A stretch of 64,000 nt of DNA from Bacteroidaceae bacterium (GTDB lineage: Bacteria > Bacteroidota > Bacteroidia > Bacteroidales > Bacteroidaceae), in the NCBI GenBank assembly GCA_017447625.1, contig JAFSNB010000016.1, positions 1 through 64,000 of the forward strand, given 5' to 3'. Below the pieces are notes generated by a model. It did no database searches. It saw only the letters and a list, made by a program, of their open reading frames with translations, and was not told the origin of the DNA. Of the stretch, positions 1,333-63,810 are shown in pieces (position 1 is the stretch's first letter; every line of letters starts with the position of its first letter). Made by a program: the position numbers and the translations under genes.

Positions 1333-2547
1333 CTAACGGCCATTTAATTTCTCAATTATCAGCTTGGCGGCACGCTGGGGAGCACCGGGTTGGCCGAGAC
1401 GTTCGGCCACCTCTTCGTAACCGCTCAACTGGGCTTCACGAGCGCATCCGCCAGGCAAGATTGTGGCAAGATGTGCGCGGCAGTTCTGAGGCGTCATGTG
1501 AATACCGAGAAGTTCGGGGACGACTTCGCGGCCTGCCACGAGGTTCACGAGGGTGACAAACGGAATCTTGATGAAGAGGTGCTGGAAGATGTGTGCCAGA
1601 ATGCCGCCTTTGGCGTGATAGCACGCTACCTGCGGAACGCGGAAGAGGGCTGTCTCGAGTACGGCTGTGCCGCTGACGACAAGGGCGGCTGTGGATCGGG
1701 ACAGTAGGGCGTAGGTGTCCGAAGTGAGGGTGACGGCTTCTTCTGAAAGGCCTGCGGACGCAATGACGGACGAATACAGTTTCTCCTCGATGTTCGGGGC
1801 TTTGGCAATAACTATGCTGTAGCGGTCGGCATACGGCTCAACGGCTTTGAGCATGATGCGCAGGTTATCCTTTATCTCGTGCTTGCGGGAACCGGGGAGA
1901 AGAGAAATAATGGGCCCCTCTCCGGCTCCCCCCGTTGGGGGGAGAGCTGCCGTTGGGGGGATAGTTGTCATTGTGGGGAGAGTTGCATCTGGGGAGAGAG
2001 CTGCATCTGGGGAGAGAGCTGCATCTGGGGAGAGATAATCTGCCACCTCATCTACTGTGGGGTTGCCAACATAATGGATGGGGTAGTTGTGCTTCTTCTC
2101 AAAGAAATCGACCTCGAAGGGGAGGATGGAGAAGAGCTCATCGACATCGCGCTTGATGTTCTTAATGCGCCACTCTTTCCACGCCCAGAGCTTCGGAGCT
2201 ATGTAATAATAGACGGGGCAAATGCGGTTCTGGTGAACGTATTTGGCTATCTTCAGGTTGAAGCCGGGGTAATCGATGAGAATCACCACGTCGGGCTTCC
2301 ATTCAGCTATGTCGCGCTTGCATTGTTCCAGACCACGCAGGATGGTTCGCGCATGGAGCAGTACGGGGATAAAACCCATGTATGCGAGGTCGCGGTAGTG
2401 GCGGACAAGGGTGCCGCCAATGGCCTGCATCTTGTCGCCTCCGAAGAAACGGAAGTCGGCCTCGGAGTCTTCACTTCGAAGTGCTGCCATCAAGTGTGAC
2501 GCGTGTAGGTCACCGCTTGCTTCACCTGCTATCAGATAGTAACGCAC
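1333..2547 (-). CDS. lpxB: Lipid-A-disaccharide synthase with repeat-derived insert
   Basis: LpxB joins UDP-2,3-diacylglucosamine and lipid X to make the lipid A disaccharide at the inner membrane. The N-terminus MRYYLIAGEASGDLHAS is the characteristic start, VYYYIAPKLWAWKEWRIKNI is a conserved central motif, and LLPGSRKHEI begins the C-terminal glycosyltransferase half. The protein has 404 residues against about 380 usually. The excess is residues about 171-212, a run built from SPDAAL repeats ending LPPTGGAGEGP. It lies between the two domains and is encoded by the GC-rich repeat family also found between genes in this window. All conserved motifs flank the insert and the frame is intact, so the enzyme is probably functional. 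Confidence 0.93.
   Translation of the reverse strand: MRYYLIAGEASGDLHASHLMAALRSEDSEADFRFFGGDKMQAIGGTLVRHYRDLAYMGFIPVLLHARTILRGLEQCKRDIAEWKPDVVILIDYPGFNLKIAKYVHQNRICPVYYYIAPKLWAWKEWRIKNIKRDVDELFSILPFEVDFFEKKHNYPIHYVGNPTVDEVADYLSPDAALSPDAALSPDATLPTMTTIPPTAALPPTGGAGEGPIISLLPGSRKHEIKDNLRIMLKAVEPYADRYSIVIAKAPNIEEKLYSSVIASAGLSEEAVTLTSDTYALLSRSTAALVVSGTAVLETALFRVPQVACYHAKGGILAHIFQHLFIKIPFVTLVNLVAGREVVPELLGIHMTPQNCRAHLATILPGGCAREAQLSGYEEVAERLGQPGAPQRAAKLIIEKLNGR
1913..2034 (-). repeat. GC-rich palindromic repeat and 18-bp tandem repeats inside lpxB
   Basis: The plus strand reads CCCCTCTCCGGCTCCCCCCG then a short loop and GGGGGGAGAG, followed by degenerate copies and three near-identical 18-bp units (GCATCTGGGGAGAGA plus three bases). 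The length and phase keep lpxB open. The first part matches the boundary repeats at 3655 and 21556. Confidence 0.85.
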
Positions 2548-3654: not shown

Positions 3655-3810
3655 TGGCCCCTCTCCGACTCCCCCCGTGTGAAAGGAGGGGAGACCTGCG
3701 GGGTACAATTTAAATTACTATTTGACTATTTACGATTTACTATTTATTTACAATATTTAGATTTAACTATTTACCAGGCATCCCCCACCGGGGGATTATA
3801 GGGGGCTTTA
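3655..3810. repeat. Boundary repeats between the A2M gene and surE
   Basis: A GC-rich palindromic element (about 3655-3706, CCCCTCTCCGACTCCCCCCG type, right arm altered) is followed by an AT-rich tract of CTATTTAC-like words (about 3715-3777) and a second hairpin, CCCCCACCGGGGG (about 3782-3796), which abuts the A2M stop codon. Confidence 0.7.
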
Positions 3811-6800: not shown

Positions 6801-9582
6801 CCTCTCCGCCCTTTACGAAGAAGAGGTTGACGCTCACTCCGTCGCCGTAGGTTGTGGTGTAGGGAATCTCTATATTCAACACAGAGTCGGAGAACTGTAT
6901 CAGCTTCTTCTCCTGTTCTCCTTGTGTTGTGAGAATGGAATAATAGAGGCTGACATCGCGCAAGCTGCTTCCCACCTGCAAGAGTGCGGGGTGGCCCACG
7001 TCGAAGGTGTCCGACGGGCAGTAGAACCAGAACTCCTTCGGGCTGGGCAGTCGGGTGTCTTTCATACTGAACAGGTAGAAGCTCTGTTCCGCCTTGGCTG
7101 AGTCGTTGGCGTTTCGGGCGATGGCGTACATCTTGTACGAGCCGGAGGGCAGGGCGGCCAGAGCCGTGAGCGGATCTCCTGACGACCAGGCCACAGCCTC
7201 GCTCTTGTCCCCGCGTTCTATGCGCCAGCTTATCTCAGCCTGAGCGGGTTCGCCTGTAGATGAGATTGCGTTGAAACGAACGTGCTTCAGGTTTGTGCGC
7301 TCTTGTTTTGAAGGCATAGATATGGAGAGGCGCAGAGGCTTGGTGCAGATGGGGATTCGGGAACTGCCTTCGCGTGTCTCGCCAGCCGGGTTTGTTACGG
7401 CAACGTCAAGAGCAATCACGAAGCCGTCCTCCAGCTGTTTGCGTGTGAGGCCTTTCAGGGGCAGGCGCACGGAGAAGCGCCCTTCGTTGTCTGTCTCAAC
7501 GGTGTCCGCGTGCATCAATGACGAGCTGGACTGGTTGCGCCACCACACGTAGGGGTAGGTCCGGCGGTAACGTCCGGCAACGCGCCCTTGGCGCACCGGC
7601 ACGCCGTTGTATCCGAGTGCTCGGCCCGTGATGGTGATGCTGTCCTGCGGCCAACTGAGAGCCGGAGCCTTATCCATCTTCACCTCGAATGTGGGCCGCT
7701 TGTATTCCTCCACCGTGAAATAAAGAGAGGCGTCCAAGTCGCCTGTTATGCTGAACGAGCCGGGCAGACACGAGGGTGGGAGAGTGAAGTCGGCTGCTAC
7801 CACGCCCATGGAGTCTGTGCGAACGGTCTGCTTGCTGACTTCCTTCCTGTTGGTGTCGTAAAGGGTGAGGCGTATCTCTTTGTCAGCCAGCACATTCGTT
7901 TCCCAATGCAGCTGTTCGTAAGCGATGCCGCTGACATGAACGGTCTGTCCCGGGCGGTAGATGGAGCGGTCAGAGAAGAGGCGCACCGTCTGCTGGCTCT
8001 TTTCCTCACGTGCAGAGTAGCTGCTGGTCCAGAGGTTCCTTTCGGGCAGGTACTTGTCCTCGCCCTTGCTTGCAGAGAGAATGTATGTGATGCTTCTGTT
8101 CTTTGTCTTGAACGAGGCCCGTCCCTCGCTGTCGGTGACGATGGTCTGATCCAGCGAGCGCGTCTCGTCCTTCTCGGTGAATACTTTGACGGATGCCCCT
8201 TCAACAGGACTTCCGCTCTCGGCATCCACAACGATGACGTTGGCCAAGCGGGTGTTTTCCAACGATCTGTAGAGCATGTGCAACGCCGAAACGGTAAAGA
8301 AGCGCACCTCCTCCTGAGTCGTGGCGGAAACGTTCTTGTTCGCCGTCTCAGCTGTAATCAGGATGGCGTAGCGGCCTATCTTCGGCGCTTTCCAAGTGAC
8401 GGTGTCGGTGAACAGCCTGTATATCTGCTTCTGGCTTGGAACGTGTCTGAGGCGGTCGATACGTGTGGCGTTCGCCTGCAGGTATGTTATCTGCTTCGGG
8501 CTCCTCTCATATTGCTTTTCGCTGAAGCTTGCATTCAGAAGATAGGTGTCGAAGGTCACAGCGGCCACATTCTTCATTTCCACGGGAATACGCACACTCT
8601 TCCCCGGATAATAACTCTCGGCCGTTCGCAGAATAACCTTCGGCTGGGTGATGTCGTTGATGCGCATGCGGAGTACGTTTATGCGCTCGTATTTGGGATA
8701 GAGGCGCAGGGCTTCCTCAGCCATCTTCACTTTGGTCGAGTCTGAACTGTTCTGGATAAGATTGATGTATGCCTCGACACAAACGGGGCGGTCGCAGAAC
8801 TGCTTTGTGAGGCCGATGATGGCGTCGCTGCGCTTCGAGGTAGGCTGAAGGTTTATCGAGTCGAGCATCAGCAGCATCTCGGCATCGCGATTCTTCTGAC
8901 TGCGGTAGATGGAGATGTAGTTGGCTATGGGCAGTTGTGCCGCTTTTTCGTTCCCGAAGTAATCACGAACGCGGGCCCAGAGGACATGCAGCAGGTCGTG
9001 CTTGAAATAGGCAGACTGCTTGCCTTGTGTGACGAAGGGCATCCAGTCGGCGCTCCTGGCTTTGGCTAAAGCTACCGGCTCGGAGAGCGATAGGCGGTAG
9101 TTGGCTGCAGCCGCTGAGTCATATTGCTCCTGCGTCCATTCCTTTATGTCGCTGCTCTTCAGCTGCAGGCCGCGTGCCTGACTGCGACGGCTGTTGTTTT
9201 GGTACAGTTCGGCAAGCACGGAGGCATAGACCGCACGTGCAGCCGTTTCTGTCTCTGCCGCACGAGCAGCCTCCAACCGCCGTATGTCTGTGAAAAACGA
9301 GTCCGGAGCCCACTCCTGCCTAAGAGCCGCGCCGCGCAGTCTGGCGCAGATGAGCTGCCCTTTAGCCTGCTCCCGTTCGGCTTTCGTCAGTATCTCCTGC
9401 GTTATGCTATAGGCTGTCTTGGGTTTCCCCGCTTCCTCAGCCGTCTGCACCCGCTTCCACATCTTCGAGAACGATTCAGCGGAGGCGAAGAGGGGGAGTA
9501 GGAGCAGTAAAAGACCCACCCCCGCCCTCCCTTGTAGGGAGGGAGCAAAATGAGGATGGCTGGATGTGCTCTTTATATTCAT
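3808..9582 (-). CDS. Large alpha-2-macroglobulin family protein
   Basis: A 1924-residue predicted exported protein. A signal peptide with the hydrophobic core GLLLLLLPLFASA spans roughly residues 20-36. Macroglobulin-like domains follow; SIYRPGQTVHVSG near residue 540 is the classic MG2 motif, and the A2M domain around residues 1130-1170 contains ESLTTWHLLG. Where thioester-type proteins carry a CxEQ motif (about residue 1337), this one reads REPRFDDALSVA, so no thioester forms. Bacterial members are thought to act as periplasmic protease traps or envelope structural proteins; that role is inference here. Residues about 1684-1753 are a low-complexity segment (repeated QPSALAP, APSS and TVRSGSPASS) made by repeat DNA. 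The first 25 residues are also encoded by a dispersed repeat. Confidence 0.88.
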   Translation of the reverse strand: MNIKSTSSHPHFAPSLQGRAGVGLLLLLLPLFASAESFSKMWKRVQTAEEAGKPKTAYSITQEILTKAEREQAKGQLICARLRGAALRQEWAPDSFFTDIRRLEAARAAETETAARAVYASVLAELYQNNSRRSQARGLQLKSSDIKEWTQEQYDSAAAANYRLSLSEPVALAKARSADWMPFVTQGKQSAYFKHDLLHVLWARVRDYFGNEKAAQLPIANYISIYRSQKNRDAEMLLMLDSINLQPTSKRSDAIIGLTKQFCDRPVCVEAYINLIQNSSDSTKVKMAEEALRLYPKYERINVLRMRINDITQPKVILRTAESYYPGKSVRIPVEMKNVAAVTFDTYLLNASFSEKQYERSPKQITYLQANATRIDRLRHVPSQKQIYRLFTDTVTWKAPKIGRYAILITAETANKNVSATTQEEVRFFTVSALHMLYRSLENTRLANVIVVDAESGSPVEGASVKVFTEKDETRSLDQTIVTDSEGRASFKTKNRSITYILSASKGEDKYLPERNLWTSSYSAREEKSQQTVRLFSDRSIYRPGQTVHVSGIAYEQLHWETNVLADKEIRLTLYDTNRKEVSKQTVRTDSMGVVAADFTLPPSCLPGSFSITGDLDASLYFTVEEYKRPTFEVKMDKAPALSWPQDSITITGRALGYNGVPVRQGRVAGRYRRTYPYVWWRNQSSSSLMHADTVETDNEGRFSVRLPLKGLTRKQLEDGFVIALDVAVTNPAGETREGSSRIPICTKPLRLSISMPSKQERTNLKHVRFNAISSTGEPAQAEISWRIERGDKSEAVAWSSGDPLTALAALPSGSYKMYAIARNANDSAKAEQSFYLFSMKDTRLPSPKEFWFYCPSDTFDVGHPALLQVGSSLRDVSLYYSILTTQGEQEKKLIQFSDSVLNIEIPYTTTYGDGVSVNLFFVKGGEVYSRSQHLLRALPDKCLKWEWRTFRDKLHPGDKETWTLRLTRPDGKPANANMMATIYDASLDALKGHSWLISLYRSHNIVSYSWNYGHYWDASQYIYMSFPNKPLKYTDFSLDCFDPQWTDGLSFMNLYGSRRRTRATGDKVFYSLANFEIRGEPSVEEAAVLREVPAALMAKASPKAVAIEDRIQEDGEGEQTVSAAAGYVRTNFNETAAFLPRLHTDRDGVVTLQFTLPESLTTWHLLGLAHTDDMDVASIEAETVARKEMMAQLYMPRFLRAGDKATLTASIQNLTEKPISGRATLEIFNPETERVISRQKASFEAKANGEQVLTFQYEPKEPGLLAVRLSAESKSFSDGEQHYLPVLSDKEWITEAVEIKADSAGTFTTDLTSLFNKNSKTATNRRLTVEYASHPIWYAIQALPALREPRFDDALSVATNFYANRLAVQIAKSEPRIKSIVEIWQREEGTPSLKSRLQEDEELKNIILDETPWLREAENNAERKRRLIELFNDNYQQARMESAIAKLRERQNADGSFSWFPGMRGSEYITRNVTLMLTRLKTLCGGELSVDGSSISKQAENVLSKAVGYLASETAKDVVEMRKAEKKGEKIVISSLARVHYLYISQHAGYYFTTQQQTDIAYLLKHMSGSVAEMDNETRAVSAIVMQTEGRKKEAESYLTSLKEHMTSTNRGTFFDYASGSFTSINRKLHTHTAAMEAVCAVTPSDKTLQSQMRRWLLSQKRTQMWNSPIESADAIYALLQPSASKDQPSALAPQPSALAPQPSDRLTLSYQSGKKTTLSAASTVRSGSPASSGASSAFPSSAPSSAPSSTAALGYIKQQIEAPAPVKSITVERRENSEAWGAVYAQYLTPVADVSAQTTGLSVRRDFSTLTPSKGDALTIRYVITADRDYEYVCLSAERPACAEPAEQASGYRWQSGLGYYRAVRDARTEYFFDRLPKGTYVLEERFYTDRSGTYSAGLCRLQSLYAPEYNAHTTGAIIKVK
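4322..4530 (-). repeat. Cluster of short repeats inside the A2M gene
   Basis: The plus strand carries GAGGGGGCCGAA units (two copies at about 4334-4358), the GAAGCGG/CCGCTTC palindrome (4378-4410), and 21-bp GGGGCGAGGGCAGA units near 4480-4515. All are in frame and encode the Ser/Ala/Pro-rich loop of the protein. Confidence 0.8.
9513..9560 (-). repeat. GC-rich boundary repeat encoding the A2M leader
   Basis: On the minus strand this reads TCATTTTGCTCCCTCCCT, a short loop, AGGGAGGGCGGGGGTGGGTC. It is the same element found just upstream of start codons at 19552, 20205 and 20770, but here it lies inside the reading frame and encodes HFAPSLQGRAGVG, the n-region of the signal peptide. Confidence 0.8.
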
Positions 9583-9624
9583 AACTTCAATACTTCAATT
9601 GTTTAAAGTTCTATTCTTGTCCTC

Positions 9625-9668
9625 TAATTACTCCCCTCCATACAAGGGAGGGGCAGGGGGGTGGGTCT
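9625..9668. repeat. GC-rich palindrome with G-quadruplex-like run
   Basis: CTCCCCTCC, a short loop, then GGGAGGGGCAGGGGGGTGGG (9646-9665) lies between the pepD stop and the A2M start. A copy differing at one base in about 40 is found at 26256-26297. Confidence 0.8.
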
Positions 9669-9669
9669 T

Positions 9670-12254: not shown

Positions 12255-13232
12255 ATGAATCATAAAAGCGTTCAACCGAAGAAGAGTTTAGGCCAGCATT
12301 TCCTCACAGATTTGTCCATCGCACGCCGAATTGCAGACACCGTGGATGCCTTTCCCGACCTGCCCGTATTGGAGGTCGGACCCGGCATGGGAGTGATGAC
12401 ACAGTTCCTCATGCCGAAGCCGCGACAGCTGAAGGTCGTGGAGATAGACATAGAGTCCGTGAGCTACCTGCGCCGCAACTTCCCCGAGCTGGAGGACAGC
12501 ATCATCGAGGACGACTTCCTGAAGATGCATCTCGACCGCGTCTTTGACGGCCAGCCGTTCGTGCTCACGGGCAACTACCCCTACAACATCTCCTCGCAGA
12601 TATTCTTCCGCGTGCTCGACCACCGCGACCTCATTCCGGGTTGCACGGGCATGATCCAAAAGGAGGTGGCCGAGCGCCTTGCGGCTTCGCCCGGCTCAAA
12701 GGCCTACGGCATCCTCTCCGTTCTCATACAAGCTTGGTACAAAGTAGATTACCTCTTCACCGTTGAACCAAATGTTTTTAACCCTCCGCCCAAGGTCCGC
12801 AGCGCCGTCATTCGCATGACTCGCAACGATATCCACGACCTCGGTTGTGACGAGCGCCTTTTCAAGCGCGTCGTCAAAACCGCCTTCGGTCAGCGCCGCA
12901 AGATGCTTCGTGTCAGCCTCAAACCCCTCTTCGCCGAACTTGGCCTCCCCGCAAGTCTCCCCGCACCCCCCGCCTCCGCAGGCGTTCTCCCCGCAGGTTC
13001 CCAACCCCCAGCCCCCACCTCCGCAGGCGTTCTCCCCGCAGGTTCCCAACCCCCAGCCCCCACCTCCGCAGGCGTTCTCCCCCCCACGGGGGGAGTTAGA
13101 GAGGGGCCTGTTCTCCCCCCCACGGGGGGAGTTAGAGAGGGGCCCGATCTCACCCGCCGCCCCGAGCAGCTCAGCATCGCTGACTTCGTTGCCCTCACCA
13201 ATGCCCTTGATCCGGCAAGATGCGGGGCCTAA
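12255..13232 (+). CDS. rsmA: 16S rRNA dimethyladenosine transferase RsmA/KsgA with tandem inserts
   Basis: RsmA dimethylates two adjacent adenines near the 3' end of 16S rRNA. The N-terminus KSLGQHFLTDLSIARRI, the SAM motif VLEVGPGMGVMT, and the catalytic GNYPYNISSQIFFRV are clear, as is VEPNVFNPPPKVRSAVIRM. Length is 325 against about 265-275. The extra residues, about 233-300, lie in the small C-terminal domain between KPLFAELG and RPEQLSIADFVALTNAL. They consist of two SAGVLPAGSQPPAPT units and two VLPPTGGVREGP units, encoded by repeat DNA. The final helix returns in frame after the insert. Probably still active. Confidence 0.92.
   Translation: MNHKSVQPKKSLGQHFLTDLSIARRIADTVDAFPDLPVLEVGPGMGVMTQFLMPKPRQLKVVEIDIESVSYLRRNFPELEDSIIEDDFLKMHLDRVFDGQPFVLTGNYPYNISSQIFFRVLDHRDLIPGCTGMIQKEVAERLAASPGSKAYGILSVLIQAWYKVDYLFTVEPNVFNPPPKVRSAVIRMTRNDIHDLGCDERLFKRVVKTAFGQRRKMLRVSLKPLFAELGLPASLPAPPASAGVLPAGSQPPAPTSAGVLPAGSQPPAPTSAGVLPPTGGVREGPVLPPTGGVREGPDLTRRPEQLSIADFVALTNALDPARCGA
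12950..13150 (+). repeat. Tandem GC-rich repeats inside rsmA
   Basis: Two 45-bp units (CCGCAGGCGTTCTCCCCGCA start) are followed by two 36-bp units centred on CCCCCCCACGGGGGG then AGTTAGAGAGGGGCC. Nearly the same roughly 43-bp sequence is found inside hemW at 60945-60988. Confidence 0.85.
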
Positions 13233-14945: not shown

Positions 14946-16148
14946 ATGGACCAGAATACCAATTTAAAACATAACGATAGCGGGCTGGAGATAATTATCG
15001 AGGCCGCCGAACAGTTCGAGAGAGAGTGTTTTCTCGAGGGTATTCGTCGTGGCCGTTTCTCCGTGGAGGAGATCCAGAAGATGACGGGTAAGGTGAATAT
15101 CTTCAGGGTTTTGATGGAAGCGGAGGGGATGCGTCTTGCATCGCTTTCGGAGCAATTTCTGAACGACTACGCCAAGGATGAGAGCAACTGCTTTGAGACG
15201 GGCGAGCGTCTGTTTCGCCGTCTGCTAAGCGCTATCAGCGCGTCGCGCAAAGAGTTCAAACTGACATGCCCTATCATTCGCCAGCGACTGCCTGAAAATT
15301 CAGGACATTCGGAACAGCCTGTGTCGCTGCCGGCGCGAGTACGCTCAGTGCTCTCTACGAAGCCTATAAATATGGGGCTGTTCGGCATCAAGTCGCATGA
15401 CGATGCCGTGCAGGAGTTGTATGAGAGCCTGAAGTCATTTTTTGCTGCTGTAATCTTGAATCTGTCGCTGTGCCACCGCGTGCTGCGTGACGAGCGGATG
15501 ATTATGTCCGATGCCGAACGCTGCAAGGCCATCTACGATAACTGTGTGCGCAAGGTGATGAGCACGGCCTGGGAGATTAAGAGGTCGATGGAAGGCGTGT
15601 CGGTGGTTCCGGTCAGCGAGCTGTTCGAGCGCAAGCGCGCAGCCCGTTCCAATTTGGATTTCTTTCGCAACAACTACCACAAGTACACAAAAGGTCAGTT
15701 CATCATGGCGCTGGTCGTTGAGATGATGCAAAACGGGTACAGCCAGGGCCTCACGGACGAGGAGATGCTTCTGTGGCCGAACAACCCCGACAAGGTGATG
15801 CAGGTGCGTGAGGCCATCGGTCTGTTAGACAGCATGGAGAGACTCAAGGGCAATAAAGACAAGTGGGATAGCCGCATAATCGTGTATTTCCTGAAATGGT
15901 GCGGGGTGGGCGAGTGCAACGAGAAGCGCCTGTACGAGCACTATCTGTGTCCGGAATACAAGAAACGCGGAGGCCGTCTGACCCCCGTAGGATGGAACGC
16001 CATCTACACCGAGCGTAATAATCTCAGGAAGCAGAAATCCAGCGAAGACTCATGGGCAAATATTTTTGAGGATTTATTCCAGAATGCCAAGTCTAAACGT
16101 TCACAAAGTGACGAAAATAACAGTCTGCTCTCTGTTGTGAATATATAG
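14946..16148 (+). CDS. Conserved-looking protein of unknown function in accessory block
   Basis: A 400-residue protein I do not recognise. It starts MDQNTNLKHNDSGLEIIIEA and is largely helical and charged, with no signal peptide or transmembrane segment. Residues about 25-60 (FLEGIRRGRFSVEEIQKMTG) could be a small helix-turn-helix-like element, but this is weak. The middle is helical (ELYESLKSFFAAVILNLSL) and the C-terminal third has KWCGVGECNEKRLYEHYLCP and ends in a polar tail. It has its own promoter and precedes the primase-like gene on the same strand with a 353-base gap. Context suggests membership of the mobile-type replication block; a role cannot be assigned. Confidence 0.6.
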   Translation: MDQNTNLKHNDSGLEIIIEAAEQFERECFLEGIRRGRFSVEEIQKMTGKVNIFRVLMEAEGMRLASLSEQFLNDYAKDESNCFETGERLFRRLLSAISASRKEFKLTCPIIRQRLPENSGHSEQPVSLPARVRSVLSTKPINMGLFGIKSHDDAVQELYESLKSFFAAVILNLSLCHRVLRDERMIMSDAERCKAIYDNCVRKVMSTAWEIKRSMEGVSVVPVSELFERKRAARSNLDFFRNNYHKYTKGQFIMALVVEMMQNGYSQGLTDEEMLLWPNNPDKVMQVREAIGLLDSMERLKGNKDKWDSRIIVYFLKWCGVGECNEKRLYEHYLCPEYKKRGGRLTPVGWNAIYTERNNLRKQKSSEDSWANIFEDLFQNAKSKRSQSDENNSLLSVVNI

Positions 16149-16501
16149 ACCCACCCCCAGCCCCTCCCGTGGAGGGAGGGGAGACCTGCAGAGAAGATCT
16201 ATATTTATCAAATAATTTGGATGAATTCCGCAGCCGGAATCCATCTTTTTTTTGCTGCTGTTGCGGCATTTTGTGTCTTCTGCCGTATGACTTTGTACCG
16301 TGAAGGGCTGTTGCGACACAAAATTCTGATGGAAGGCGATACAAAATCATCGCTCCCCGACACAAAGCTCCAACAAAAGTGGCCACATAGCCGATACAAA
16401 AGTCAGAAGGGGGCTTTACAACTGAAAATGAAGCTGCCCTTGACTGTGTCGTGGAATTGCCGTATCTTTGCACAAAGTTCTTATTTAAAACATGCAAAGA
16501 T
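16149..16501 (+). other. Intergenic region with boundary repeat and promoter
   Basis: Directly after the stop codon lies a GC-rich boundary repeat (16149-16192, CCCCTCCCGTGGAGGGAGGGG). The rest is unassigned sequence ending in the -7 box of the next gene. Between about 16340 and 16410 the words CGATACAAAA and CGACACAAAG recur in a loose array that could be operator-like; no gene is seen. Confidence 0.5.
16463..16471 (+). promoter_or_regulatory. -7 promoter box for the primase-helicase pair
   Basis: TATCTTTGC 30 bases before the start codon at 16502. The earlier in-frame ATG at 16451 is upstream of this box and so is unlikely to be used. Confidence 0.6.
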
Positions 16502-18787: not shown

Positions 18788-18914
18788 AGTGACAGATGTG
18801 AGAGATGATTTCTAAGGAGCATATTAATAAATCCCTAAATACCTTGCAAAACGTACAGCGTATTTAGGGATTTTTCCGTAGTCGTCTATAGAATCATCTC
18901 TCACATCTGTCACT
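18788..18914. repeat. Nested perfect inverted repeats after the helicase gene
   Basis: The outer arms are a perfect 23-bp inverted repeat (18788-18810 and 18892-18914, GTGACAGATGTGAGAGATG). Inside is a second perfect 14-bp pair (18829-18842 and 18860-18873, AAATCCCTAAATAC) with a 17-nt loop followed by Ts. The inner stem could terminate the helicase operon; the outer one has no obvious conventional role. Confidence 0.85.
18829..18877 (+). terminator. Probable terminator of the primase-helicase operon
   Basis: A 14-bp stem AAATCCCTAAATAC / GTATTTAGGGATTT runs straight into TTTTTCC. It lies 87 bases after the helicase stop codon. Confidence 0.55.
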
Positions 18915-19259: not shown

Positions 19260-19551
19260 AGCGTGAAAAGAGAGTAAGGAAAGCCCCCAAAAAGCGGCCC
19301 CCTTTTCGCTCCCCGAGGGGAGCACGACAGCTCAGCCGGCGAGACTGCCGATGTCCCCAGAACCCGGGTAGGGGAGCGATAAATGGAAAAATGACCTGCC
19401 TCTCTTCACAAGAGATCATTAAGGCCCCCCACTAACTCCCCCCTGATGGGGAGAACTCCTGCGGGAAACGGGCCTGCAATTTAACCTTAATTATTAACCA
19501 TTAAAAACACAAAGGACTACCTCCTCCCTAAAAGAAGACAACCCTTGTCCT

Positions 19552-19592
19552 CATTTCGCTCCCTCCCTCACAGGGAGGGCGGGGGGAGAGTC
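19552..19592 (+). repeat. GC-rich boundary repeat before the HU-like gene
   Basis: TCATTTCGCTCCCTCCCT, loop, AGGGAGGGCGGGGGGAGAGT. The closing GGGGGGAGAG ends about 14 bases before the ATG. Sister copies sit in the same position before the lysozyme-like gene and the trmH-family gene. Confidence 0.85.
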
Positions 19593-19602
19593 CACCACTA
19601 TT

Positions 19603-20100: not shown

Positions 20101-20433
20101 CAGACTCTCCCCCCTGCCCCTCCCTAAAGGGAGGGGAGTAGTTACTCCCGCAGGCAGGGGGGAGGTCTAAACTCATTAAACTTTAAACGTTAAACTAAGC
20201 TACTCTTGTCCTCATTTCGCTCCCTCCCTTTAGGGAGGGCGGGGGGAGAGTCCGACTCTTAACAACAACGGATTACACGGATTACACGGATTTTTAAGTG
20301 AACACGAGATTTGTCGCAGACCCACGAGGAACGCAGTAATCTCACTAATCTAACGAATTTTTCTCAAACAACGGATTACACGGATTTAACGGATTTATTC
20401 TCTAATTCTCTAATTCTCTAATTCTTGATAAAC
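20101..20433. repeat. Repeat-filled gap between HU-like and smalltalk genes
   Basis: It contains two GC-rich palindromes (20104-20143 with a trailing C/G-rich part to 20168, and 20205-20252), then words of the type GGATTACACGGATT (about 20268-20292 and 20373-20396) and an 8-bp CTAATTCT tract (about 20399-20427). No promoter or gene other than the smalltalk peptide was recognised. Confidence 0.7.
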
Positions 20434-20529: not shown

Positions 20530-20824
20530 GCCCCCTTCAATCCCCCCGATGGGGGAAGAATTGACATTTGGGGGCGCTTCGCTTAAAATTATAGAAAAAT
20601 TGATTTAGAAAATTTCAGTCGCTTCGCTCCAAAATTAGGTGTTGGCTGGTATTTCGGGCCGTAGGCCTTATAATTTTCTGATTTGATTTTCTTTTAATTT
20701 TGAGGCCGATAGGCCGACCCCTATAAATAACTCTAAAATAACGAATTATTAACCCTTAAAAACAACTCCCCTTGTCCTCATTTCGCTCCCTCCCTACAGT
20801 GAGGGCGGGGGGAGAGTCCCGATT
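20530..20824. other. Gap before the lysozyme-like gene with boundary repeats
   Basis: A CCCCCCGATGGGGG hairpin lies at about 20546-20560 and a CATTTCGCTCCCTCCCT element at 20770-20820, one base pair of whose stem is broken. Between them are words containing GCTTCGCT and GGCCGTAGGCC / GGCCGATAGGCC. No other gene is supported. Confidence 0.55.
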
Positions 20825-21556: not shown

Positions 21557-21618
21557 AAGCCCCTCTCCGACTCCCCCCGTGGGGGGGGAGGGGAGGGCTG
21601 CGGGGGGAGTTTGGGAGA
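21556..21618 (+). repeat. GC-rich boundary repeat after the lysozyme-like gene
   Basis: Starting at the stop codon: CCCCTCTCCGACTCCCCCCG, T, then GGGGGGGAGG and more G-rich sequence. It is the same type as the elements inside lpxB and rsmA. Confidence 0.8.
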
Positions 21619-24459: not shown

Positions 24460-24796
24460 AGACCCACCCCCAGACCCCTCCCGTGAGGGAGGGGAGACCT
24501 GCGGGGTGTGGGATTTATTTATATTGTTTAAAAGAATGACCCTATAAGCCTTCCAAGCGCTAGCAACTCCCCTTCCTTAAGGGAGGGGAGACCTGCGGGG
24601 TGTGGGATTTATTTATATTGTTTAAAAGAATGACCCTATAAGCCTTCCAAGCGCTAGCAACTCCCCTCCCTTGGGGGAGGGGAGACCTGCGGGGTGTGGG
24701 ATTTATTTATATTGTTTAAAAGAATGACCCTATAAGCCTTCCAAGCGCTAGCAACTCCCCTCCCTCACGGGAGGGGTTGGGGGTGGGTCTTATATT
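24460..24796 (+). repeat. Three 94-bp direct repeats each bounded by GC-rich hairpins
   Basis: A 94-bp unit (start points near 24496, 24590 and 24684) contains GACCTGCGGGGTGTGGGA, an AT-rich middle and CTTCCAAGCGCTAGCAACTC, then a CCCCTCCC/GGGAGGGG hairpin. The units are nearly identical; only the hairpin loop and arm differ. No gene lies here. Confidence 0.9.
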
Positions 24797-26173
24797 ATGG
24801 CAAAAGTTAAACCTTTCCGTGGTCTTCGACCGCCGAAGGCCCTCGTGGAACGGGTGGAGAGCCGCCCGTATGATGTCCTCGACTCCGAAGAGGCACGTGC
24901 CGAGGCAGGTGACAACGAGATGTCGCTCTATCATATCATCAAGCCGGAGATAAACTTCCCCGAAGGAACAAGCGAGTACGACCCGCGCGTATATGAGGAG
25001 GCTGCACGCCAGTTCCAGAAGTTCCAGGACAACGGCTGGCTCGTGCAGGATAAGGACGAGCACTACTACATCTATGCCCAGACCATCGGGGATTCACCCC
25101 TCGGCGGACTGAGCGGTGCTTCCGGCAAGACTCAGTACGGACTGGTCATCGGAGCCTACGTGGAGGACTACATGAACGGCGTTATCAAGAAGCACGAGCT
25201 GACTCGCCGCGATAAGGAGGAAGACCGCATGAAACACGTCCGCGTGAATGACGCGAACATAGAACCGGTGTTCTTCGCCTATCCCGACAACGCCGTGCTC
25301 GACAAGCTCATCATGCGTTATGCCGCAACAGAGCCCGAGTACGATTTCGTTGCCCCCATAGACGGCTTCCGCCATCGCTTCTGGGTTATCAGCGACGCTG
25401 CCGACATAGCCGCCATCACCGAGGAGTTCCGCAAGATGCCGTCGCTATACATCGCCGACGGGCACCACCGCTCGGCAGCTGCCGCTCTGGTAGGCGCTGA
25501 GAAGGCACGTCTGAATCCCAACCACCGCGGCGACGAGGAGTACAACTACTTCATGGCTGTGGCCTTCCAGGCTTCGCAGCTCACCATCCTCGACTACAAC
25601 CGCGTGCTCAAGGACCTCAACGGCCTCACCTCCGAGCAGTTCCTCGATGCCCTACGCAAGAACTTTGAAGTGAAGCTCATTGACAAAGAACCCATTGACC
25701 ATTCGCCAAGCGCAGCCAATAATGGTCAATGTTCAATGGTCAATGTTCAATGTTACGCCCCTAAGGCTCTCCATGAGTTTACACTCTACATCGGAGGTTC
25801 TCCCCTCCCCGGGGAGGGGCAGGGGGTGGGCCCTGGCCACTGGTATAGCCTCAAGGCCAAGGAGGGCACCTACGACAACAACGACCCCATCGGAGTCCTC
25901 GACGTGGATATCTCCAGCCGTCTGATTCTGCAGGATATACTGGAGCTGGGCGACCTGCGTTCCAGCAAGCGTATCGACTTTGTCGGTGGCCTGCGCGGAC
26001 TGGCCGAGCTGAAGCGCCGTGTAGATAGCGGTGAGATGCGTGCTGCGTTGGCTCTCTATCCCGTCTCCATGCAGCAGATCATGGACATCGCCGACAGCGG
26101 CAAGATTATGCCGCCCAAGGCCACTTGGTTCGAGCCGAAACTCAGGAGCGGGCTCATAATTCACAAATTATAG
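24797..26173 (+). CDS. DUF1015 family protein with two repeat-derived inserts
   Basis: A 458-residue protein of the DUF1015 family, starting AKVKPFRGLRPPKALVERVE and carrying YDVLDSEEARAEAGDN, SLYHIIKPEINFP and LYIADGHHRSAAAALVGAEK, the strongest family signature. Its biochemical role is not established. Usual length is about 410. The excess lies at residues about 298-345: [12 protein letters not shown] is encoded by AATGTTC/AATGGTC words, and SPLPGEGQGVGPG by a GC-rich palindrome (25796-25832). The conserved C-terminal half (RIDFVGGLRGLAELKRRV, PVSMQQIMDIAD) resumes in frame. The last codons, HKL and stop, also lie in AT-rich repeat-like sequence. Confidence 0.85.
   Translation: MAKVKPFRGLRPPKALVERVESRPYDVLDSEEARAEAGDNEMSLYHIIKPEINFPEGTSEYDPRVYEEAARQFQKFQDNGWLVQDKDEHYYIYAQTIGDSPLGGLSGASGKTQYGLVIGAYVEDYMNGVIKKHELTRRDKEEDRMKHVRVNDANIEPVFFAYPDNAVLDKLIMRYAATEPEYDFVAPIDGFRHRFWVISDAADIAAITEEFRKMPSLYIADGHHRSAAAALVGAEKARLNPNHRGDEEYNYFMAVAFQASQLTILDYNRVLKDLNGLTSEQFLDALRKNFEVKLIDKEPIDHSPSAANNGQCSMVNVQCYAPKALHEFTLYIGGSPLPGEGQGVGPGHWYSLKAKEGTYDNNDPIGVLDVDISSRLILQDILELGDLRSSKRIDFVGGLRGLAELKRRVDSGEMRAALALYPVSMQQIMDIADSGKIMPPKATWFEPKLRSGLIIHKL
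25690..25832 (+). repeat. Two repeat families inside the DUF1015 gene
   Basis: AATGGTC and AATGTTC words occupy 25722-25753, with a related CATTGACCATT at 25692. A hairpin CTCCCCTCCCCGGGGAGGGG (25799-25819) followed by CAGGGGGTGGG lies 45 bases later. Confidence 0.85.
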
Positions 26174-26300
26174 ACCCCCTCCTCACTCCCCCTTATAGGG
26201 GGAGAGTTAATACTCACCAGACTTTGAATTCCTTTAATTCATCCAGTCAATCAGTATCTACTCCCCTCCCTACAAGGGAGGGGCAGGGGGGTGGGTCTTC
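26172..26300 (+). repeat. GC-rich repeats at the DUF1015-yigZ junction
   Basis: CCCCCTTATAGGGGG (about 26189-26203) and CTCCCCTCCCTACAAGGGAGGGG (26260-26283) followed by CAGGGGGGTGGG. GGGAGGGGCAGGGGGGTGGG at 26276-26295 has four G-runs with short loops. It lies where the next gene should start. Confidence 0.85.
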
Positions 26301-26892: not shown

Positions 26893-27191
26893 CAGGACTC
26901 TCCCCCCTGCCCCTCCCTTTAGGGAGGGGAGTAATTACTCAAGCACCGTTAAAATTACGCAACGAATTATACCAATTAAACGAATATTTTTCAACAACGG
27001 ATTACACGGATTTAACGGATTTAGATCAATGCATAATGCATAATTATGAATTCATAATTGGACTCTCGCTTATTCGTACAATTCGTATAATTTGTTGAGT
27101 ATAAACAAGCATTGCGTAGCCTAATCCGTAAAATCCGTGAAATCCGTTGTTCTGAAATAAGCACTGCGCCAGCCCAATTATGCATTATGCA
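26893..27191. repeat. Word-repeat gap between yigZ and the trmH-family gene
   Basis: A GC-rich palindrome (26896-26936) is followed by ACGGATTACACGGATTTAACGG (split words, 26995-27022), ATAATGCATAATT words (27029-27055), ATCCGTAAAATCCGTGAAATCC (about 27122-27145) and a terminal ATTATGCATT tract (27177-27203). No gene is recognised. Confidence 0.7.
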
Positions 27192-28007: not shown

Positions 28008-28013
28008 ATTGGA

Positions 28014-28062
28014 CTCTCCCCCAGCCCTCCCTACAGGGAGGGAGCGAATTGAAGACAAGGAT
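28014..28062 (-). repeat. GC-rich boundary repeat before the trmH-family gene
   Basis: Minus strand: TTCGCTCCCTCCCTGTAGGG then AGGGCTGGGGGAGAGTCC. The GGGGGAGAG ends about 8 bases before the ATG, the same arrangement as at 19552 and 20770. Confidence 0.8.
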
Positions 28063-60040: not shown

Positions 60041-61261
60041 ATGGCTGGAATATACGTTCATATACCATTTTGTCGTTCGCGATGCATTTATTGCGATTTC
60101 TTTTCCACAACAGACGAGGAAAAGCGTGATGCATACGTCTCTGCTTTGTGCAATGAAATCCGTTTCACAGCACAGACCTATCCTCACACGCGCGCGCACA
60201 CAATATATATAGGTGGAGGAACGCCGTCGCAACTCAGTCCCACGCAACTCGCCCGCATCCTCTCAACAATAGAGGAACATTTCCCTCCGTTTCCCGACAC
60301 CGAGATTACCATTGAAATGAATCCCGACGATATCGAGGAAGATGTAAAATGTAGAATGGAAGATGTAAAATGTTCAATGTTCAATGTTCAATGGTCAATG
60401 GCCAACCGCCTTTCCCTCGGTATTCAGACATTCGATGATCAGATTCTGCGTTTCCTTAGGCGTCGTAACGACTCGGCAACTGCCGTTAAAGCCGTTCGCT
60501 CCCTGCAGGATGCAGGCATAAAGAACATCAGCATTGACCTGATTTACGGTCTTCCCGGACAGACAATGGAGGTGTGGCAGCGCGATCTCGATATAGCTTT
60601 CTCGCTTGGAATCCAACACCTGTCGGCTTACGCCCTTTCGTTTGAGGAGGGCACTCCTTTGTGGCAGATGCGAGAACAGGGTAGGGTTGCCGAGGCAGAT
60701 GAAGCCCTCTCTGTTGCTATGTATGAGGCACTTTGTGACAGGGCAGAGGCAGCAGGTTTCCGTCACTACGAGATTTCCAACTTCGCTCTTCCCGGCTTCG
60801 AATCCCGTCACAACTCCTCTTATTGGAGCGGCAAACCCTATTTCGGCTTCGGCCCTGGTGCACATAGCTATGACGGCGACCGCACCCGCTGGTCCAACCG
60901 TCCCGACCTGGGCGAATACATAAAATTCTGGGGGAAATCACCCTCCGCAGGCGTCCTCCACCCCACGGGGGGAGATAGAGAGGGGCCTCAATGTTCAATG
61001 TTCAATGTTCAATGTTCAATAAATCTCACCCTTTCCGAACTTTACAACGAGTTCGTTATGTGTGGCCTCCGCACGTGCGAAGGGGTTGACCTCAATGAAC
61101 TTGAAGCCCGCTTCGGACAGTCGCGTCTCGAGTACATCCTTCGTATGGCCGCCCCCCACATCGCAGACGGACGGCTCCTTCAGTCCGAAGGTCGTCTGCG
61201 TCTTACCCGTCAGGCCCTTATGGTGTCCGACGATGTTATGAGCGACTTGATGGTGATTTAG
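60041..61261 (+). CDS. hemW: HemW-type radical SAM protein with two repeat-derived inserts
   Basis: A 406-residue radical SAM protein, the heme chaperone HemW formerly called oxygen-independent coproporphyrinogen oxidase. YVHIPFCRSRCIYCDFFS contains the CxxxCxxC cluster ligands, YIGGGTPSQLSP and EITIEMNPDD follow, RLSLGIQTFDDQILRFLRR and IDLIYGLPGQTMEVW are family motifs. Two inserts enlarge it: residues about 101-120 (DVKCSMFNVQWSM) from AATGTTC words, and about 301-326 (VLHPTGGDREGPQ, then CSMFNVQCS) from a GC-rich palindrome plus the heptamers. The C-terminal domain after the second insert (LTLSELYNEFVMCGLRTCEG) is normal. Confidence 0.92.
   Translation: MAGIYVHIPFCRSRCIYCDFFSTTDEEKRDAYVSALCNEIRFTAQTYPHTRAHTIYIGGGTPSQLSPTQLARILSTIEEHFPPFPDTEITIEMNPDDIEEDVKCRMEDVKCSMFNVQWSMANRLSLGIQTFDDQILRFLRRRNDSATAVKAVRSLQDAGIKNISIDLIYGLPGQTMEVWQRDLDIAFSLGIQHLSAYALSFEEGTPLWQMREQGRVAEADEALSVAMYEALCDRAEAAGFRHYEISNFALPGFESRHNSSYWSGKPYFGFGPGAHSYDGDRTRWSNRPDLGEYIKFWGKSPSAGVLHPTGGDREGPQCSMFNVQCSINLTLSELYNEFVMCGLRTCEGVDLNELEARFGQSRLEYILRMAAPHIADGRLLQSEGRLRLTRQALMVSDDVMSDLMVI
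60341..60401 (+). repeat. AATGTTC-family tract inside hemW
   Basis: GATGTAAAATGTAGAATGG then AAGATGTAAAATGTTC and AATGTTC/AATGGTC words. The tract is in frame and adds about 20 residues. Confidence 0.85.
60941..61020 (+). repeat. GC-rich palindrome and heptamer tract inside hemW
   Basis: The palindromic part (60945-60988) matches that in rsmA (13075-13148 region) over about 43 bases with few changes. Five AATGTTC words follow directly (60989-61020). Confidence 0.9.
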
Positions 61262-63810
61262 TGCACGAGCGTCTTTTTGCCGTTGACGATGTAAACTCGG
61301 GCCTCTCCCCCGGCCCCTCCCCTGTTAGGAAGGGGAGAACCTTGAACCTTGAACCGTGAACCATTAACCATTCTTCCGCTCAAGTCATACACCGCGCCAG
61401 CTGACGAATTATGCATTATGCATTCTGCATTATGAATTGCCTCAACTTTAGTCGTTTCCGCTTTGCTGCCCAAACGGAAGAGGCGTACTCCGTGACTCGG
61501 GACGGTGGTGGTCAGTGTGCCTGTGGTTCTGAACAGATTGAATCCGTTGGCCCAGATGTCGTGTACGGGAACTGCCTCGTCTGCTCCGTAGCCCAGCAGC
61601 GTCAGGTCGAAGGTGTAAGGCTCGTTCTTTAAGACATAGAAGAGGAACTCCATCGTCGTTCCTGATGATGACGTGTTGTCTGTGTCGCAGCTGGAGTCGT
61701 AACCGCAGAGGGCGCGGAAGGTCTTCCACGAGTGGCCAGCTGGCAGGTCGTAGATCAGAGTGCATTGGGCGTTCAGTCCGAGACCTTTGCTATATGTTCT
61801 TCCTTCTACGCGAAGCGTGCCGTTCTCCACATTCTTGTTTTTATGCAGCGAGCCCCACTCTGATGTGTACGATGATTCTTGCAGCGTAGTAAGCGATGTC
61901 TCGTTGCCTTCTTCGTCGATAAGCACGGGATTAATCAGGTCGGCTCGGTCGTAGCTGAAGCCGTCGCCCCAGTTGCTTACCACAATCTTCAGTTGTTCGG
62001 CGCCGGTGACGTCACATTCCATAGTCTTCGACTTCGTTCCCGTACGGCTTATCAGTCCGGAGCGCGCGGCGGAGTTGTCCTGCTCGTCTGTAAGCGGGTT
62101 CTGTGCGAACACCATGAAACGGAGAGTCGTGGTGGAGTTCGTCTGTCCGATGCCAGAGTCGTCGGCGGCTCCCATAGCCTTGAATCTTACTACATCCATA
62201 TCCTCGGGAATCTGGAAGAAGATGGCTGCGTTGGCATCGGCTGAGAAACCGCGGTCGTATGTGACACCCATCACCTTCATCTTACCGCCGTTATCCACAT
62301 TCTTGTTCTCATATACGCGGTTGAAGTATGATTTGGTGTAATCGCGAGTCTTGTATTCGCCTGTCAGGGGGACCTCGGTACCGTCACGCAGAATGAGTGT
62401 GGGGTTGATCCAGTCGCCGTGGTCGTAGTAGTTGTTGTCGCCGCCGTCGTCAACCACCAGCACCAGTGTCTTCTCGCCTTCGGGCCACGGGATATCCACA
62501 TCCACCGCGTGCCCGTCGGTAGTGTAAGCCACTACCTCGCTCTTGTACAGCGCTTTCTGTCCCACAACCCAGCGGGTGTTGTCGCGCTGGAACAGAGCCA
62601 GATAACGAGTGTCACCGATATGCGAAGTCCACGCCACGCGTCCCAGATCCTCATCGTTATACACCTGATGTGCGTCCTCGCCGTACTTGTGCATCTGGTG
62701 GTATTCCTCGTTGTTCAGCAGCGAGAGGGTGAAGTCGTCGTTCTTGGTCATTTCACCGCCGAAGAACAGGGGCGAGTGGCAGATGCCCCACAGCGTCATC
62801 ATCGTCAGCTGCTCGTTCTGCGACAGACGAGTCCAGCGGCCTGCGTCCGCTCCCGTATAGCCCTGGTCGGCGATAGTCATCGAGATCTGGCCCAGCGGCA
62901 ACATATCGCAGTCGGCGTAGTTGCCCGGCCGGGTCACCGTCTCCCATTCGTGTGCCTCGTTGAACACGGCATCCACCGCGCTCCAGTTGTCCCACAAGTC
63001 ATCCATCATGCGCCACATATTGGCGTTCCCGAGACACTCCTCAGCGTACTGATACTGAGTCTTGCCCGGACTCAACGACAGCACTATCGGGCGGCCCGTC
63101 TGGTCTATGGCCTTGCGAATCATGTGAATCTCGTCGGTGTAGAACGGGCGGCTCAAGTCGTCAATCTTCAGGAAATCCACGCCCCACTCGGCATAGAGGT
63201 CCATTATGCTGTTGTAGTAGAGCTGTCCGGCTGCGTTGTTCTTCACCAGAAGGTTGTCCTTCAGCCACGTGCAGGGCGACGAGGTGCCGTTATACACCTG
63301 ACTCCAGGCCGTCGATTCGCTGCCTTTCAGCTTGTAATTGCTTCCGACCACGCTCTTCGGGACGCCTCGCATGATATGTATTCCGAACTTCAAACCCATA
63401 TCGTGAATCTTCTTGGCCAGCGCCTTGAAGCCCTCGTTCTTGCCGTCAACCATACACGAGGGGAATCGGGTGGGAGAGGGTAGGTAACGACCGTACTCAT
63501 CCAGTACATAGTCCTGCGTGCCGTTCTGGTTGTAGTTTCCTCCTCCCAGCGACGGGTGGTTGCAGTACCAGCGTATATCGATTACCACATACTCCCAGCC
63601 GTATTTCACCAGGTCGTTATCCACCAAGTACTGCGCGTTTTGCAGCACTTCCTTCTCGGTGACGCTTGAATAATAACAGTCCCAAGAGTTCCAGCCCATA
63701 GGCGGAGTCATAGCCCAAGTGCGGAAGGTTGCGATGTCTTGTGTTTCCTGTGCCTGGGTAAATACGCTTGCGAGTGCAAACGCAAGAACGGTGAGTGTGA
63801 ATCGTCTCAT
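61258..63810 (-). CDS. Secreted GH27 alpha-galactosidase with NPCBM domain
   Basis: An 850-residue exported glycosidase. Signal peptide MRRFTLTVLAFALASVFTQA; GH27 domain starts near MTPPMGWNSWDCYYSSVTEK and the nucleophile is expected in VDFLKIDDLS (about residue 215), with the acid/base in the RPIVLSLSPG and MMDDLWDNW region. Residues about 500-780 include NPCBM-type modules (KVMGVTYDRGFSADANAAIF). It removes alpha-galactose from glycans and would feed the galactose genes at 36.9-42 kb. The tail (about 790-850) contains three repeat-derived stretches before GARVYIVNGKK, a secretion-tail-like end. Its stop overlaps that of hemW by four bases, tail to tail. Confidence 0.9.
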   Translation of the reverse strand: MRRFTLTVLAFALASVFTQAQETQDIATFRTWAMTPPMGWNSWDCYYSSVTEKEVLQNAQYLVDNDLVKYGWEYVVIDIRWYCNHPSLGGGNYNQNGTQDYVLDEYGRYLPSPTRFPSCMVDGKNEGFKALAKKIHDMGLKFGIHIMRGVPKSVVGSNYKLKGSESTAWSQVYNGTSSPCTWLKDNLLVKNNAAGQLYYNSIMDLYAEWGVDFLKIDDLSRPFYTDEIHMIRKAIDQTGRPIVLSLSPGKTQYQYAEECLGNANMWRMMDDLWDNWSAVDAVFNEAHEWETVTRPGNYADCDMLPLGQISMTIADQGYTGADAGRWTRLSQNEQLTMMTLWGICHSPLFFGGEMTKNDDFTLSLLNNEEYHQMHKYGEDAHQVYNDEDLGRVAWTSHIGDTRYLALFQRDNTRWVVGQKALYKSEVVAYTTDGHAVDVDIPWPEGEKTLVLVVDDGGDNNYYDHGDWINPTLILRDGTEVPLTGEYKTRDYTKSYFNRVYENKNVDNGGKMKVMGVTYDRGFSADANAAIFFQIPEDMDVVRFKAMGAADDSGIGQTNSTTTLRFMVFAQNPLTDEQDNSAARSGLISRTGTKSKTMECDVTGAEQLKIVVSNWGDGFSYDRADLINPVLIDEEGNETSLTTLQESSYTSEWGSLHKNKNVENGTLRVEGRTYSKGLGLNAQCTLIYDLPAGHSWKTFRALCGYDSSCDTDNTSSSGTTMEFLFYVLKNEPYTFDLTLLGYGADEAVPVHDIWANGFNLFRTTGTLTTTVPSHGVRLFRLGSKAETTKVEAIHNAECIMHNSSAGAVYDLSGRMVNGSRFKVQGSPLPNRGGAGGEARVYIVNGKKTLVH
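61300..61440 (-). repeat. Three repeat families inside the GH27 tail
   Basis: On the plus strand: a GC-rich palindrome (61303-61342), GAACCTT/GAACCGT/GAACCAT heptamers (61340-61372) and ATTATGCATTCTGCATTATG words (61408-61438). All are in frame. Confidence 0.85.

Follow-up and report, generated by a model that had tools for sequence, protein, structure and literature searches.

To our knowledge, a single class of enzyme, the Y1 transposases, stands behind the repetitive extragenic palindromic (REP)-like repeats of bacteria, and we know of no enzyme associated with the protein-coding palindromes of Rickettsia, the Rickettsia palindromic elements (RPE). A part of PMC3116915 treats inverted doublets of REP sequences (REPINs) as the likely mobile form; the features of the REPtron, in which such repeats are paired with a REP-associated tyrosine transposase (RAYT), are set out in a section of PMC6006769, and a portion of PMC3733652 describes protein-coding palindromes, RPE among them, and REP sequences in open reading frames. 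Here we analyse a GC-rich palindromic unit in the window, the 64,000-nucleotide stretch at the start of contig C1 (JAFSNB010000016.1) of a Bacteroidaceae draft genome. We think it likely that these units are the terminal inverted ends of small mobile elements, whose autonomous form of ~450–640 bp would consist of a unit, a DUF559 (Vsr/EDxHD-like) nuclease gene and an inverted unit, and whose nuclease-less derivatives would be the unit pairs and single units.

The closest described systems each share part of this picture. Like the REPtrons (REPIN–RAYT systems) of Pseudomonas and E. coli, the family has high-copy hairpins, inverted doublets, an extragenic bias and units that appear to co-evolve with an enzyme, and REPINs seem to offer its best functional analogy; it differs in that the enzyme would be a DUF559 nuclease and not a Y1 HUH transposase, in that full elements lie in frame inside proteins, and in having no conserved GTAG tag (of 86 hairpins, 7 have a GTAG no more than 9 nt away on their tail side). 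With RPE, compared by description and not by sequence, it shares short palindromes in frame in protein genes, and empty orthologous sites are found here at DUF1015, LpxB and MiaB; the differences are the other phylum and the nuclease gene carried between units. EDxHD homing endonucleases such as I-Bth0305I resemble it in nuclease homology and in the presence of occupied and empty alleles at one site, whereas palindromic ends, many unrelated sites, presumed nuclease-less derivatives in high copy and the absence of any splicing part among the domains found set it apart from these, and from introns and inteins. Miniature inverted-repeat transposable elements (MITEs) and their parent insertion sequences are alike in that a larger coding relative accompanies inverted-repeat elements of ~100–150 bp located in gene gaps, a combination for which enterobacterial repetitive intergenic consensus sequences (ERIC), or intergenic repeat units (IRU), are among the closest comparisons; they differ from the present family, which has no known transposase, no clear target-site duplication, a hairpin in each terminal repeat and loops matched within the element.

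The source genome is a 2.56-Mb draft of 46 contigs, 73% complete. Hairpins were catalogued in a sample of 449,465 bases (17.5% of the genome: the window and 20 further stretches), and family-wide counts cover 301 genomes of the family. The perfect core of the unit is CCCTCCCT, 0–8 bases and GGGAGGG. Searched as CCCTCCCTN{0,8}GGGAGGG, it gave 113 + 110 strand-wise matches in the source genome, symmetric sites being counted on both strands in such totals, and the reversed pattern gave 0 + 0; copies are thus not confined to the window. At least one match is present in 104 of the 301 family genomes. The sample holds 86 C-first hairpins versus 3 G-first, with 2 in a reversed-sequence control. Because pyrimidine-rich heads of few types stand on 80 of the 86, the unit is asymmetric, composed of a head, a hairpin with a variable loop and a tail. 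Head H1 (GACTCTCCCCC) is found on 22 hairpins, H2 (GACCCACCCCC) on 25 and H3 (GCCCCTCTC) on 29, with head variants on 4. Head-outward pairs of units ~100 bp apart are common, the dispersed pairs measuring ~100–150 bp; 15 lie within 160 bp among the 86 hairpins, two of which have a unit in common and some of which have mixed or unassigned heads. Perfect-hairpin doublets were found in at least 21 of 25 chosen genomes and in none of the reversed control.

DUF559 (PF04480) genes, which occur in 109 of the 301 genomes, are bracketed by these units. Among the 30 best DUF559 loci, units lie within 250 bp on both sides in 15 and on at least one side in 23, while unit density elsewhere in the same loci is 0.2 per kb. 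Both-side units flank 30 of the 50 DUF559 genes examined, with an outer hairpin span of 442–642 bp; this set joins the 30 best with the source IspG copy and 19 genes chosen as source copies or for their long frames, several of which share one host site across genomes. Two inverted pairs in the low-copy genomes G238 and G074 also bracket DUF559, the gene being located between inverted palindrome copies at loci L241 and L242. Co-occurrence extends to whole genomes: palindrome and DUF559 counts correlate across the 301 genomes (Spearman rho 0.63) and within genus (rho 0.75, 22 genomes), and DUF559 is present in 20 of the 21 genomes with at least 40 strand-wise palindromes versus 89 of the 280 others (Fisher 6.6e-9). 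Nuclease and unit also co-vary. The edit distance between left and right units is 5.8 within an element versus 12.4 between elements (p 5e-5), and nuclease distance tracks unit distance among 23 elements whose nucleases are less than 70% identical (Mantel r 0.28, p 0.0004).

A profile of 12 DUF559 sequences matches 3hrl, an 'Endonuclease-Like Protein' (1.6e-29), and 3r3p, a 'Mobile intron protein' (1e-7) which we take to be I-Bth0305I. Invariant in the 12 sequences are 26 columns, among them E20, D48, E59, D61, H65 and D74, and the PADLOC homing endonuclease model matches one of two source DUF559 copies at 5.7e-6. In the literature, a DUF559 gene is assigned to the EDxHD homing endonuclease family (PMC9403480) and a Caulobacter DUF559 protein is described as Vsr-like (PMC12907096).

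Two full elements of the source genome are candidate masters. The one on contig C23 is 506 bp long and has its own ATG and stop codon, H2 heads and the hairpin CCCCTCCCGTGAGGGAGGGG, with one left-side change; the other, on C21, is an H3 element fused to IspG, with the hairpin CTCCCCCCGTGGGGGGGAG. Of the 86 hairpins in the sample, these two are the most frequent dispersed forms of the H2 and H3 families, the H2 hairpin occurring in 7 copies with H2 heads (C23 itself lies outside the sample) and the H3 hairpin in 14 copies with H3 heads, two of them the IspG element's own. The 506-bp element and the dispersed H2 copies have both head and hairpin in common. The in-frame IspG–DUF559 fusion occurs in six genomes (source, G301, G307, G310, G078 and G110); H3 units encode the fusion junction in four of them (source, G078, G110 and G301), with a further H3 unit beyond the DUF559 stop. 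The IspG of other relatives ends in ...HADGRC or similar, and that of G316 has a palindrome-like tail and no DUF559.

MiaB, IspG, LeuB, LeuC, IspF and a SpoIID-domain protein each contain, or are fused to, a full element of ~450–640 bp in frame; the sites occupied by DUF559 elements are many and unrelated. By Pfam, DUF559 splits the SpoIID domain into two stretches, stands between helicase domains in another protein, and is fused to LeuC (aconitase family), LeuB (isopropylmalate dehydrogenase family), IspF (YgbB) and phosphoglycerate mutase, the enzyme names being our reading of the Pfam families. Neither a splicing nor an intein domain was found by Pfam in 10 DUF559 fusion proteins, and no Rfam family, introns included, reached its gathering score in 16 DUF559 loci. 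A loop of MiaB offers a size series at one site. Among 28 genomes searched, only G078 has the DUF559 element there; both of its sides match uninterrupted MiaB elsewhere, and immediately past DUF559 the best radical-SAM stretch picks up at profile position 46. In G166 the loop holds a palindromic pair without the nuclease, in the second MiaB copy of the source genome a unit-like insert, QPLPAGKGENGG, and in the remaining rows a few to ~20 residues (the G222 row is cut by a contig end, and G311 is the same assembly). At another site, a gene stop in G113 abuts the next ATG with 8 nt unaligned, G331 aligns over the site at 94–98%, and G063 has 523 nt there, carrying the two units and a DUF559 copy interrupted by a premature stop. 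From its peptide we read the downstream gene as argC; by our reading its former start is lost in G063, where the gene would begin inside the element.

Empty sites are also found for smaller copies. In the DUF1015 protein of the window, its Pfam name confirmed, the insert GSPLPGEGQGVGP has no counterpart in any of the 33 relatives aligned, which were drawn from the 80 best loci by protein (74–83% identical; labelled Bacteroidaceae, Prevotellaceae, Prevotella or similar, and many of them ruminant metagenome bins). The gap between serA and DUF1015 is empty in L023 (3 nt) and L027 (4 nt), and is occupied in the window, L016, L021, L022, L025 and L028 by a unit at most 2 nt from the stop, of differing head type and usually with a partner before the DUF1015 start. 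The lpxB–surE, surE–A2M and A2M-upstream gaps and the stretch past rsmA are filled in only some of nine syntenic relatives, the hairpin lying within the gene in L208 (lpxB) and L209 (surE), and two further gaps are empty in all nine; the A2M proteins of these relatives are 46–50% identical to that of the window. Across G063, G331 and G113, whose flanks are mostly 80–100% identical, a single gap may be empty or may hold a heptamer array, the same pair or a wholly different one. The LpxB linker, compared in 20 loci from 20 genomes, contains different palindromes or heptamer arrays in some relatives and is short in others. In-frame insertion is not restricted to these genes: proteins of the source sample with units in frame include LpxB, RsmA, DUF1015, GH27, IspG, AroE, IlvD, an AcrB-family pump, a YfhO-domain protein and an AIRS-domain enzyme. 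The IlvD unit lies between the two Pfam domains, a position at which the loop sequence differs in 14 aligned rows, drawn from 13 other genomes.

We envision that the nuclease most likely recognises its cognate hairpin-bearing ends and would cut donor DNA, target DNA or both, repair then converting the breaks into copies of the element. It may also act in trans on nuclease-less derivatives, and the dispersed ~100–150-bp pairs and single units would be such derivatives, much as MITEs are of an insertion sequence. Stop codons are often absent from at least one frame across the units, so an element near a start or stop codon, or in a permissive loop, is translatable with the host protein; the nuclease would then sometimes be translated as an extra domain of that protein. 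We lean, with some reserve, towards regarding these as a class of prokaryotic mobile element, in which a DUF559/EDxHD gene between palindromic ends lives in host proteins without a splicing part and feeds nuclease-less pairs and singles in high copy. Among the open PMC papers listed by our searches, none has a title or abstract beginning that describes the palindrome family or palindrome-bracketed DUF559 genes; subscription papers and databases such as ISfinder lie outside that scope.

Several observations weigh against this nuclease-borne element. No unit was detected within 250 bp in 7 of the 30 best DUF559 loci, nor at the third source copy, on C27; no DUF559 match was obtained in 13 of the 58 genomes that have 10 or more palindromes, some of the 13 being incomplete assemblies; the window and the source sample contain no DUF559 besides the IspG fusion; and no master of the H1 family was identified in the 73%-complete genome. 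Flanks of the examined sites show no clear target-site duplication, the TTTA repeats at one site being explicable by end symmetry of the element. The correlation of counts was checked for phylogeny within genus only. Transposition, nuclease activity, hairpin recognition, the copying route and the movement of derivatives in trans are inferred and not observed. The same association could come about through settlement of DUF559 genes in or next to palindromes spread by another means. We nonetheless regard it as unlikely that the palindromes are an independent REP-like family and the DUF559 genes separate selfish genes inserting into or beside them. The loci without a detected unit and the palindrome-rich genomes without a DUF559 match speak for such independence, as does the fact that, in a passage of PMC1525189, palindromic repeats are known targets of insertion sequences in other bacteria; on the other side, brackets are oriented head-outward, units are alike within an element far more than between elements and co-vary with the nuclease sequence, and a gene settling in one existing unit would split that unit. 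Movement of the units by a RAYT (Y1 HUH) transposase, as in a REPtron, was considered because that is the closest known type of system; part of PMC6006769 reports a Bacteroidetes subclass, 2.6, of TnpA_REP with atypical flanking structures, and Y1 (PF01797) matches occur in 99 of the 301 genomes. We rejected it as very improbable: the source genome, at 73% completeness, has no PF01797 match despite 223 palindrome matches, none of the 30 best Y1 loci has a unit up to ~1.5 kb on each side, and Y1 and palindrome counts are only weakly, if significantly, correlated (rho 0.14, p 0.012).

The placement of the units bears on a different possibility, that they are host regulatory RNA elements (attenuators or stabilisers) selected at gene ends and shared by descent. 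Only 21 of the 86 hairpins lie within called genes, versus 82% for random positions, and 43 of 305 gene gaps in the source sample have a unit. Where the head faces a stop codon, the median distance is 2 nt and 23 of 25 cases fall within −1 to +12 nt; where it faces a start codon, the median is 50 nt (31 cases), as placed by a home-made gene caller that is rough at start codons. Two classes of tail divide between these positions, alpha at stops and beta at starts (12/6 versus 1/19, with 20 of 58 units unclassified), for which the p value of 8e-5 is only indicative because the classes were defined after the sequences were seen. The adjacency to stops and the division of tails would fit a regulatory role, as would the long hairpins that would form in RNA. 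Orthologous gaps that, in close relatives, contain nothing or an unrelated element, the patchy presence in 104 of 301 genomes and the copies inside coding genes make such a role a very doubtful explanation; moreover, no Rfam family reaches its gathering score in the window, and we set aside a known structured RNA, taking whalefall-1 (E 0.036) and miRNA families as chance matches. The position of units beside stop codons and in loops may result from choice of target, from survival, or from the two together; units that have a stop-free frame are tolerated within genes. It is least credible, in our judgement, that nothing moves now and that old repeats are mere passengers while homologous recombination swaps gaps between strains. 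Whole gap contents do differ beside near-identical flanks, and G113–G331 identity climbs from ~82% to ~99% across a region with elements, which suggests that gap contents are exchanged by recombination; recombination breakpoints at the elements are suggested in one region only, and we do not claim them. Passenger repeats would leave unexplained the copies at many non-homologous sites, the in-frame insertion in single genes and the link to DUF559.

If the units are indeed the ends of DUF559 elements, the element would occur in roughly one in three of the family genomes sampled and would make protein linkers, N- and C-terminal extensions and gene fusions such as IspG–DUF559. This would supply a testable nuclease partner for REP-like repeats and protein-coding palindromes in common gut and rumen bacteria, and would give selfish DNA a natural way of producing protein linkers and gene fusions. 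Much of the gap variation between close Prevotella relatives could be explained, and annotators would be cautioned that insertion accounts for many N- and C-terminal tails and for some of the DUF559 'domains' seen in enzymes.

The loops of paired units were compared among the matches listed, leaving out tandem-order, reversed-order and one-strand-only pairs. Loops are identical as reverse complements in 40 of 67 pairs versus 28.6 expected from within-genome shuffles, and loop mismatches number 37 versus 69.4, with 0 of 20,000 shuffles as extreme. For the 23 pairs with differing arms, the test across genomes is significant (24 mismatches versus 45.4) and the test within genomes is null (24 versus 24.0, p 0.75). 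Between close species, loops show single-change differences. Kissing loops were rejected as the explanation of the match on account of that null test and of the variation between close species, and we read matched loops as a sign of common origin and no proof of loop pairing.

Units and related features of the window are as follows, in order of position.

1913..1944, plus strand: single H3 unit (GGCCCCTCTCCGG and CTCCCCCC hairpin), in frame in the variable linker of lpxB.
3656..3706, plus strand: H3-type unit with an imperfect hairpin and the tail GACCTGCGGGG, between surE and A2M.
9513..9667, no strand assigned: head-outward H2 pair with loops TTGTA and TACAA at the 5' end of the A2M gene.
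13077..13144, minus strand: two tandem H3 units, in frame in the rsmA C-terminal extension, encoding LPPTGGVREGP twice.
16148..16191, plus strand: single H2 unit directly following a stop codon.
19544..19593, minus strand: single H1 beta-type unit upstream of an HU-like gene.
20103..20253, no strand assigned: head-outward H1 pair with mirrored loops TAAA and TTTA.
20770..20819, minus strand: single H1 beta-type unit upstream of a peptidoglycan-domain gene.
21559..21590, plus strand: H3 unit 2 nt past a stop codon.
24461..24789, no strand assigned: H2 pair between serA and DUF1015, beginning 1 nt past the serA stop, with outer loops GTGA and TCAC and a ~94-bp tandem-repeat expansion.
25800..25832, minus strand: single H2-like unit in frame in DUF1015, adding 13 residues.
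26173..26297, no strand assigned: head-outward pair between DUF1015 and yigZ, the right unit in frame at the YigZ N-terminus.
26896..26939, plus strand: single H1 alpha-type unit 3 nt past the yigZ stop.
28012..28059, plus strand: single H1 unit at the 5' end of the minus-strand gene 27192–28007.
61300..61338, plus strand: unit in the GH27 gene, in frame within its C-terminal tail.

A preliminary description of the window had proposed a dispersed palindrome at gene boundaries that is also translated within conserved proteins, in the manner of RPE. A unit is present at every gene boundary it named, with hairpins starting at 3669 (imperfect), 9525, 9632, 16161, 19561, 20117, 20222, 21571, 24475–24776 (four), 26186, 26263, 26910 and 28025. 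The in-frame copies it placed in lpxB (1926, PPTGGAGEGP), the rsmA C-terminal tail (13077 and 13113), DUF1015 (25802, SPLPGEGQGVGP) and the GH27 tail (61314, SPLPNRGGAGGE) are likewise there, and the peptides are of the types it gave, LPPTGG-[VA]-REGP and SPLPxxxGxG. For the A2M leader, APSLQGRAGVG does stand immediately before LLLLLLPLFASA; the left unit of the pair is in frame in the signal peptide if the start is 9582, and the true start is uncertain, the gene caller placing it at 9462. At the YigZ N-terminus, VSTPLPTREGQGGGS is encoded by the unit, which stands in for the old start and evidently replaced it, because relatives without the unit begin with, for example, MTDTFLTIASP. A copy reported in hemW was not recovered: the finder detects no unit between 28100 and 61300, and hemW has a TTCAATG heptamer array instead. 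The likeness to RPE, as a dispersed and partly protein-coding palindrome, holds, and relatives with empty sites exist. That description took the palindrome for the whole element; the evidence points to it as the end unit of a larger element with a DUF559 nuclease, which also occurs as nuclease-less pairs and single units. The same inserts at the same places in relatives are not the rule, since orthologous gaps are occupied, empty or filled with a different element; some pairs are common to close species.

Heptamer arrays of TTCAATG / ATTGAAC lie at 23190–23540, 25690–25760 and 60992–61019 of the window, and also in frame in hemW and in DUF1015, where L026 and, in part, L031 have a related insert; other heptamers, ATTCGTC and AATTCAA, are found in the LpxB linker of relatives. 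These arrays are a second, unrelated class of in-frame repeat in the same permissive places. A 55-bp imperfect inverted repeat between two genes (18788–18914, 78% complementary) is unlike the GC-rich units. The unit in the window A2M precedes the hydrophobic core, and the G304 relative (L205) has a pair at the same A2M N-terminus; right-hand units directly follow an apparent signal peptide at G110 C6:125448 and G304 C23:50490 (LLAQVTTP and SLASVITP).

A scan for carriage by viruses gave 4 pattern matches, none of which was confirmed. Tandem arrays bearing the unit have repeats of ~94 bp in the window (24475–24757) and ~66 bp in L221 (G192 C36:49137–49288). Upstream of DUF1015 in L029, a second hairpin appears to interrupt the left arm of the unit (GTTCTGCCGGAACACTTAATAGTTCC...), a possible nested insertion. 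Differing pairs occupy one gap between flanks 89–100% identical in close species at L275 (17355), L282 (11756 and 12518) and L279 (8330). Finally, in genomes of genus g14 and two of genus g1, the tail AGTAGAATGTTTGTGGGGAGGATTCTACT and its variants contain a further hairpin whose loop has GGGGAGG, as seen at loci L252–L256, L262, L263, L266, L267, L271, L272 and L274.

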